DNA of 35,801 nucleotides. It comes from an uncultured Burkholderiales bacterium (GTDB lineage: Bacteria > Pseudomonadota > Gammaproteobacteria > Burkholderiales > Burkholderiaceae_D). Positions 24,951 through 27,054 of this stretch are shown in pieces. The stretch lies in assembly GCA_903836575.1 (NCBI GenBank), contig CAILRJ010000091.1:1-35801 (forward strand). Direction: 5' to 3'. Below the pieces are notes generated by a model, which saw nothing but the letters and a program-made list of their open reading frames with translations, was not told the DNA's origin and did not search any database. A program made the translations under genes and the position numbers. Each line of letters opens with the position of its first letter. Positions within the stretch are counted from its first letter, which is position 1.

Positions 24951-24980
24951 AACAAGCGGCCTGCGGGCCGCTTGTTTTTT
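24951..24980 (+). terminator. Strong Rho-independent terminator after argG
   Basis: AACAAGCGGC and GCCGCTTGTT form a perfect 10-bp stem with a 6-nt loop, followed by a run of T, 13 bp after the argG stop. Confidence 0.92.
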
Positions 24981-25372: not shown

Positions 25373-25423
25373 ATGTCCGATTGATTAGACAAGACAGCTT
25401 TCTTTGTCTACTCTATCGGACAT
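25373..25423 (+). promoter_or_regulatory. Nested palindromic operator/promoter of hipBA
   Basis: Outer arms ATGTCCGAT (25373-25381) and ATCGGACAT (25415-25423) and inner arms TAGACAA (25386-25392) and TTGTCTA (25404-25410) share exactly one centre at 25398. Both pairs are perfect. TAGACA and TACTCT, 17 bp apart, form a plausible -35/-10 pair inside the palindrome. The right outer arm contains the first two bases of the hipB start codon, so transcription could begin at or next to the ATG (leaderless). Autoregulation by HipB is the natural inference. Confidence 0.75.
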
Positions 25424-25793
25424 GAAGACTTCTCCTTCCCTGCCTTTTCCTGCCGTCGCCCGCAAGCTGCGCGCATTTGGCCAGCGCTTGCGGGCGGCGC
25501 GCCTGCGCCGCGAAATTTCGACCATCCAGTTCTGCGAACGCATCAATGTCTCGCGCGATACCTTGCACCGGATGGAAAAAGGCGACTGGTCGATTGCCAT
25601 CGGCACTTACATGCGCGCGCTGCGCGTGCTGGGACTCGATGACGACCTGGACACGCTGGCAGCCGATGATGTGCTCGGACGCAAGCTGCAAGACTTGCAA
25701 CTGCCAACACGCAAACTCCGGGGGGTGCGCAAAGCAGCGTCAACGGCTCCGGTTGATGATCCCTCCGGAGGCAGCGATGGCGCATCCAGCTAG
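25422..25793 (+). CDS. hipB: HipB-like XRE-family antitoxin/repressor
   Basis: This 123-aa protein has an N-terminal helix-turn-helix: FGQRLRAARLRREIS, then TIQFCERINVSRDTLHRMEKGD, with IAIGTYMRALRVLGL completing the domain. The C-terminus is a Ser/Gly/Asp-rich tail. I place the start at the ATG at 25422; the TTG at 25404 in the ORF track lies inside the palindrome and lacks a ribosome binding site. The gene overlaps hipA by 17 bp and should be co-transcribed. By family precedent it neutralises HipA and represses the operon through the palindrome. Confidence 0.87.
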   Translation: MKTSPSLPFPAVARKLRAFGQRLRAARLRREISTIQFCERINVSRDTLHRMEKGDWSIAIGTYMRALRVLGLDDDLDTLAADDVLGRKLQDLQLPTRKLRGVRKAASTAPVDDPSGGSDGASS

Positions 25794-27054
25794 CGGAAAA
25801 GGCGGTGCACGTGACGCTTTCCAGGTCCATCTCGATGCAGCGGAACTCGGTGTGACGCAGCAGGTTGGTATGCTATACCGGGACGCGTCTGTGACGGCGA
25901 TGCCTGCAGTATTCGAGTACGGCAGCAACTGGCTCTCGCATCCGTCACGCTTCATGCTGGACCCGCGCCTGGACTTGTACAAGGGTAGCCAGTATCCAAC
26001 AGGGGGCACCGGCAGCTTCGGCATTTTCCTGGACTCGGCACCGGACCGCTGGGGCCGCATGCTCATGGAACGCAGGGAAGCGGCCGACGCCGATCGCCAA
26101 CAGCGTCCGATGCGGACCTTGCATGAGATCGACTTCCTGCTCGGCGTGCATGACAAGGCGCGCATGGGAGCGCTGCGTTTCAAGGTGTCGGACGCAGGAC
26201 CATACCTCGCATCGCATGACAATCCGGCACCGCCAGTGACAACTCTGCAAGCGCTTTCGGCCATCAGCGCGAAGCTGGAAGAGCCGGGAGCCGAAACACT
26301 GCCCGAGTACCTGCAGTGGTTGTCCATGCTGATTGCGCCAGGATCGTCGCTCGGTGGTGCGCGGCCAAAAGCGAATTTCACCGATACGGATGGCACGCTC
26401 TGGTTCGCAAAATTCCCATCACGGGAAGACCGGATTGATGTCGGCGCCTGGGAATACCTGTTGCATGGACTGGCGAAAAAGGCCGGCATCTGGGTGCCAC
26501 CGTCACGACTGGCTGCTTTTTCAGGTACCTACCGGACTTTCTGTGTTGCGCGCTTTGATCGCCTCGACAATAGCCGCCGGCTGTTCGTTTCGGCGATGAC
26601 GCTGCTTGAGCGCCAAGATGGTCAGCACCCTCCCGCCAGCTATCTCGATATCGCCGAATTTCTGTCGGACGAGGGTGCCCGTAATCACATCGACGTCGGT
26701 CTGGCACAGCTATACCGGCGCGTGATTTTCAATATCATGACCGGCAACCGCGACGATCATTTACGCAACCACGGATTCCTCCGCACTTCCACCGGCTGGA
26801 ATCTGGCACCGGCCTTTGACATGAATCCGAATCCCTATAAGGCCGAGCACGCCCTAACGTTCGATGGAAGCGTCGCCTCGCCCAGTCTGGCGGCAGTACG
26901 CCAGACCGCCGAACTATATCGACTGACGCTCAAAGCGTCACAGGAGATCGAAAGCCAGGTCCGGGCCAGCGTGCTCCAATGGAAAGAAGCAGCATTGGCA
27001 CTCGACCTGCCGCGCAGCGAAATCCTCATGATGAGTAATGTCATCGACGCCTAA
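25777..27054 (+). CDS. hipA: HipA-like serine/threonine kinase toxin
   Basis: This is a 425-aa HipA-domain kinase, started at the ATG at 25777 with GGAGG five bases upstream. The track ORF begins 300 bp earlier in the wrong frame for hipB. An N-terminal HipA_N-like part includes GTGSFGIFLDSAPDRWGRMLM. The kinase core has the flexible P-loop SSLGGARPKANF (about residues 190-200), LWFAKFPS with the ATP-binding lysine, catalytic MTGNRDDHLRNHGF (about 320) and the metal-binding AFDMNPNP. E. coli HipA phosphorylates GltX and causes growth arrest and persistence; this is a distinct subfamily whose target is unknown. The stop overlaps the alcohol dehydrogenase stop on the other strand by three bases. 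Confidence 0.88.
   Translation: MAHPASGKGGARDAFQVHLDAAELGVTQQVGMLYRDASVTAMPAVFEYGSNWLSHPSRFMLDPRLDLYKGSQYPTGGTGSFGIFLDSAPDRWGRMLMERREAADADRQQRPMRTLHEIDFLLGVHDKARMGALRFKVSDAGPYLASHDNPAPPVTTLQALSAISAKLEEPGAETLPEYLQWLSMLIAPGSSLGGARPKANFTDTDGTLWFAKFPSREDRIDVGAWEYLLHGLAKKAGIWVPPSRLAAFSGTYRTFCVARFDRLDNSRRLFVSAMTLLERQDGQHPPASYLDIAEFLSDEGARNHIDVGLAQLYRRVIFNIMTGNRDDHLRNHGFLRTSTGWNLAPAFDMNPNPYKAEHALTFDGSVASPSLAAVRQTAELYRLTLKASQEIESQVRASVLQWKEAALALDLPRSEILMMSNVIDA

Follow-up and report, generated by a model that had tools for sequence, protein, structure and literature searches.

HipB boxes and leaderless antitoxin mRNAs are each already known. In Escherichia coli, the HipB box is an 18-bp element of the form TATCCN8GGATA (PMC3376134). 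Inspection of the MG1655 sequence revealed four such boxes arranged as two pairs with 28-bp spacing, the nearest box ending 21 nt before the ATG. The Legionella HipBST operon carries three HipB sites in a row, separated by 53-bp gaps, with the nearest one 24 nt before the start codon (PMC10653801). At the level of the message, the regulator of paaR2-paaA2-parE2 in E. coli O157:H7 is leaderless as determined by 5' RACE and N-terminal sequencing, and lambda cI provides a leaderless message of an autorepressing regulator (both in PMC8630535). Leaderless messages account for 32 of the 37 Mycobacterium tuberculosis toxin-antitoxin pairs that have a primary start (PMC3898074), and transcription regulators are over-represented among the leaderless messages of Burkholderia cenocepacia and Cupriavidus (PMC4603805, PMC7563307). 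A limited search of the literature on leaderless messages and HipB returned no leaderless hipB; one may be reported elsewhere.

Here we analysed a 35.8-kb stretch of Burkholderiales DNA, termed the window. Comparative sequence analysis indicates that positions 25374-25422 very probably constitute the autoregulatory operator-promoter of a type II hipBA toxin-antitoxin operon, with a predicted leaderless start of hipB.

A hipBA operon preceded by two facing boxes

The window encodes argF, argG, ppnP, hipB and hipA in this order on the plus strand, together with a convergent dehydrogenase-like gene; argF, argG and the dehydrogenase-like gene were named by eye from their translations. The features of the locus are as follows.

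25373..25423, no strand: whole dyad, two boxes facing each other, position kept in relatives
25373-25381 and 25415-25423: outer arms ATGTCCGAT and ATCGGACAT, 9 bp, perfect
25386-25392 and 25404-25410: inner arms TAGACAA and TTGTCTA, 7 bp, perfect
25374..25391, plus strand: HipB-type box O1, TGTCCGATTGATTAGACA, whose inner half holds the -35 hexamer
25405..25422, minus strand: HipB-type box O2, TGTCCGATAGAGTAGACA on the minus strand, covering the -10 region and ending on the A of the hipB ATG
25386..25391, plus strand: -35 hexamer TAGACA, from the best promoter of the 110-bp region, 17-bp spacing
25409..25414, plus strand: -10 hexamer TACTCT, 7 nt before the ATG
25421..25422, plus strand: transcription predicted to start at the A of the ATG or, less likely, at C25421, leaving a leader of 0-1 nt
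25422..25793, plus strand: hipB, XRE-type antitoxin/repressor of 123 aa (HTH_31, E 3.8e-11)
25777..27054, plus strand: hipA, HipA-family kinase toxin of 425 aa (HipA_C, E 1.9e-42)

HipB matches PDB entry 9u9g ('XRE family transcriptional regulator, HipB') with an E value of 7.5e-18, and the start of hipA (25777..27054) overlaps the end of hipB (25422-25793). The XRE/HTH antitoxin gene thus lies directly before the HipA-kinase gene in one operon, as in type II HipBA systems. An assignment to HipBST does not apply, given the overlap of the two genes and the lack of a separate hipS between hipB and the kinase gene. Further upstream, a strong terminator-like hairpin follows argG at 24951-24976, so ppnP is probably transcribed separately from argG. 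The same genome carries a second, diverged hipB-hipA-like locus of about 35% identity (G000:C234:2400-4200, L160), at which no box-pair operator was found.

Sequence and repeat checks showed that the dyad at 25373-25423 consists of 20-nt arms around an 11-nt spacer, with 18 of 20 positions complementary and the centre at 25398. The two perfect arm pairs of 9 and 7 bp that an earlier note had placed around this common centre match its coordinates exactly. As it had also stated, the right outer arm runs into the hipB ATG (25422-25424), the A and T of which fall within the arm. Across the window, the dyad is the sole inverted repeat of at least 18/20 (spacer 3-40), and when the window was simulated 20 times with a first-order Markov model, 19 of the runs contained no comparable repeat. 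Furthermore, the outer arm pair occurs only once in the 4.0-Mb genome. The palindrome is confirmed as real, not a product of chance.

The 9-bp and 7-bp arms correspond to the outer and inner halves of O1 and O2, two boxes of the 18-bp consensus TGTCCGAT(A)N5-6GACA that lie head-to-head with their centres 31 bp apart. Upon scanning both strands of the 35.8 kb with a weight matrix built from 20 relatives, the window left out, O1 gave the top score of all positions (23.2 bits) and O2 the second-best (21.1 bits), the next, unrelated site reaching 8.0 bits. Of the nested palindromic operator proposed earlier, the operator is upheld by the comparative evidence; the nesting is not, since the units are two 18-bp boxes, one per arm. 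Paired 18-bp boxes with inverted half-sites over the hipB promoter are the arrangement expected of a HipB operator. The E. coli consensus TATCCN8GGATA is not matched by the window boxes, which share its length and combine an outer TGTCCGAT(A) with inner TGTC-type half-sites. A search of the own genome with the half-specified box, allowing at most one mismatch, yielded only one further exact match, which falls within a bioD-like reading frame, and so lends no support to a HipB regulon extending beyond this operon.

Promoter register and the start of hipB

TAGACA and TACTCT are present at a 17-bp spacing, as claimed before. The latter hexamer agrees with TATAAT at only three of six positions; the promoter falls below the threshold of the consensus scan, and its score alone is not significant (shuffle p 0.27). 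No upstream plus-strand promoter for hipB passed the scan. Taken by itself, the window promoter is poor, and it becomes convincing only through its relatives. HipB relatives were drawn from whole genomes of the order and a public genome collection, giving 21 same-register loci, the window counted, from Undibacterium, Paraburkholderia, Burkholderia, Caballeronia, Comamonas and several uncultivated groups. In 19 of them the top-scoring sigma-70-like promoter lies over the boxes, with the -35 positioned at -36, a spacer of 17 bp and exactly 7 nt from the end of the -10 to the ATG. The two exceptions are L038, where the -35 is again at -36 and the -10 can be placed in alternative ways, and L033, which has a better-scoring match elsewhere. 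The -35 hexamer reads TTGACA in most relatives, TTGGCA in a few and TAGACA in the window, and the -10 reads TAATCT, TAAAGT or TAATAT in relatives. As these loci are homologous, their agreement is not independent evidence. This comparison favours an operator overlying the promoter, with the -35 in O1 and the -10 in O2, and the conserved -10 register favours a transcription start at or beside the start codon, both as suggested by the earlier note.

The hipB gene has no Shine-Dalgarno sequence: the duplex energy is -1.1 kcal/mol in the window and averages -1.3 kcal/mol in relatives, weaker than in shuffled sequence (-2.05). The Shine-Dalgarno sequence of hipA is strong (-9.5 kcal/mol). Together with an AUG start that is invariant among the loci, this lack is what is expected of a leaderless gene. 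In the locus alignment, coding periodicity sets in at the ATG, and a stop 6 nt upstream of it in some orthologs excludes an earlier start in those orthologs. The TTG at 25404 was considered as an alternative start and rejected: an in-frame TTG at -18 owes its frequency solely to the TTGYC of the box, and L061, L038, L070 and others lack it, some of them with stops a short way upstream. Given the position of the -10 and the missing Shine-Dalgarno sequence, the most likely start of hipB transcription is the ATG itself or the nucleotide preceding it. With a -10 as poor as TACTCT, expression could be weak or stem in part from ppnP read-through.

An alternative that we consider unlikely retains the operator but has the main hipB transcript start upstream with a leader, either from a distal promoter of its own or by read-through from ppnP, the promoter over the boxes being minor. 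The weakness of the window promoter is in keeping with it, as is the finding of no terminator between ppnP and hipB. However, the -35/-10 register is held exactly 7 nt from the ATG at 19 of 21 loci with unrelated upstream contexts, a leadered message would have no Shine-Dalgarno sequence to use, and a read-through message would fold (-24.8 kcal/mol) with the ATG hidden in a stem. Far less probable still is that the palindrome acts as an RNA hairpin in ppnP-derived transcripts, be it a terminator, an attenuator or a mask of the ribosome site. It does fold well (z about -5) with the start codon in one arm, but so would any DNA palindrome, and no T run follows the stem. Moreover, G-U pairs are not in excess over A-C mismatches (12 versus 19 cells), each arm has a conserved TGTC...GACA box structure, the conserved bases coincide with the promoter hexamers, and the same boxes recur as a second upstream pair. 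We thus rejected the RNA-hairpin reading for its lack of G-U preference and for boxes structured like a DNA operator. A fortuitous or non-functional repeat has a practically negligible probability: the weakness of the promoter is all that speaks for it, and uniqueness in the window, the simulations and, decisively, a position and sequence kept across many genera refute it.

The autoregulatory operator-promoter with a leaderless hipB start enables us to propose a putative mechanism. Two HipB dimers would occupy O1 and O2, and the 31-bp spacing, about three helical turns, would place both on one face of the DNA. HipA would then join the box-bound dimers into a two-fold symmetric complex, in which O1 masks the -35, and O2 masks the -10, the start point and the A of the ATG. 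Once the boxes are free, RNA polymerase would initiate at the ATG or one nucleotide ahead of it, and in the resulting mRNA hipB would have neither leader nor Shine-Dalgarno sequence and hipA would be translated from its own strong ribosome site. The comparative evidence likewise favours the HipB autoregulation suggested earlier. Binding of HipB or HipB-HipA, the ensuing repression, the position of the 5' end and translation without a leader are predictions from it, as is the complete block of RNA polymerase that the earlier note expected from HipB binding.

Conservation, a second box pair and probable loss of the operon

The dyad of the 21 same-register loci is centred 24 nt upstream of the ATG. 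Information content is concentrated in -48 to -31 and -18 to +3; the 11-13 nt separating the boxes carry little, and the sequence further upstream almost none. Among 399 genomes of the order, the two-box pattern (at most two mismatches) occurs in six genomes at eight sites, all before hipB, and a reversed control pattern gave no match in the same genomes. A hipA relative was detected at 20 of the 21 loci. In relatives, departures from the dyad fall chiefly at positions where the promoter calls for different bases, as in the T-T at -35/-13 in 17 of 21 loci; the window has an A at this position, resulting in a perfect inner arm and a weaker -35. In some relatives (L037, L070, L076, L083 and L096) the ATG lies about 3 nt further away. 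A close HipB relative of 68% identity (L035/L086) has its dyad centre 52 nt before the ATG and a different box sequence. Another box type, TGCCACATA / TATGTGGC-like, precedes the HipB relatives of L075, L080, L037 and L089, which suggests that the operator sequence has changed within the HipB family at constant geometry.

A second head-to-head box pair with 31-bp spacing is found about 120-160 nt before the ATG in 15 of 20 relatives (about -120 to -157; L031, L061-L065, L067, L069, L072, L002, L032-L034, L036 and L082), and none was found in the window. In this distal pair, the outer halves are far more conserved than the inner ones (14.2 versus 7.2 bits). It does not cover the hipB promoter and shows the same bias, so the half-site asymmetry is not only a by-product of the promoter. 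Most simply, each pair would be spanned by a two-fold symmetric complex; the unequal half-sites, in the upstream pair as well, would predict such an assembly of HipB and HipA.

Within the genus, a complete genome (G001) retains the box pair behind ppnP, with O1 identical at 18 of 18 positions and the ATG changed to ATC, as an orphan operator at G001:C1:3706088-3706136 (L166, L167). Neither hipB nor hipA was found downstream of it, and another genome of the genus (G002) yielded neither operator nor hipBA. The hipBA operon was probably lost within the genus, judging from these genomes. As G001 illustrates, the operator can outlast the operon, reflecting either a recent loss or a site retained for another protein.

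Similar paired boxes precede hipB in homologues L084-L139, mostly from Bacteroidota. Most of the Bacteroidota homologues have 18-27 nt between the end of a TAnnTTTG promoter element and the ATG, so their hipB messages should have a leader. Since they share the dyad geometry and not the promoter register, the box-pair arrangement is broader than the leaderless start. Among the loci read here, the box pair is retained and the promoter appears to shift: in Betaproteobacteria (leaderless) it lies inside O2, whereas Bacteroidota and E. coli (leadered) have it further upstream. The lineage-wide prediction for the HipBA persistence operon is that repressor box, promoter and start codon occupy the same ~50 bases. 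The strongest form of it, in which the repressor box incorporates the start codon and a leaderless antitoxin-toxin message is obligatory across a whole HipBA lineage, we regard as rather doubtful. If true, the operon could be re-synthesised via leaderless (70S) initiation while HipA slows normal translation, and recovery from the toxin would be coupled to a different initiation route.

Comparison with known systems

Among leaderless systems, paaR2 and lambda cI resemble the window in that a cI-like regulator repressing its own synthesis is encoded on an mRNA without a leader, both features being predictions for the window. In contrast to the window, with its predicted leaderless start, paaR2 belongs to another toxin family and has another operator. 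M. tuberculosis is an actinobacterium in which leaderless mRNA is common, whereas the window belongs to the Burkholderiales, where such messages are a minority class. The Legionella HipBST operators resemble the window in having 18-nt HipB sites over a predicted promoter (PMC10653801); they differ from its close pair touching the ATG and its two-gene hipBA operon. The window is most reminiscent of E. coli K-12 hipBA, with 18-bp paired HipB boxes over the promoter and the order hipB-hipA. However, E. coli MG1655, as well as many relatives of the window, has four boxes, whereas the window has one pair only. The E. coli boxes are true 5+8+5 palindromes 28 bp apart, and those of the window have unequal half-sites 31 bp apart. 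The nearest E. coli box stops 21 nt short of the ATG, whereas O2 includes the A of the start codon. In E. coli, HipA dimerises within HipA/HipB/operator complexes, as cited in PMC7029023, and the two-fold complex predicted here agrees with that arrangement.
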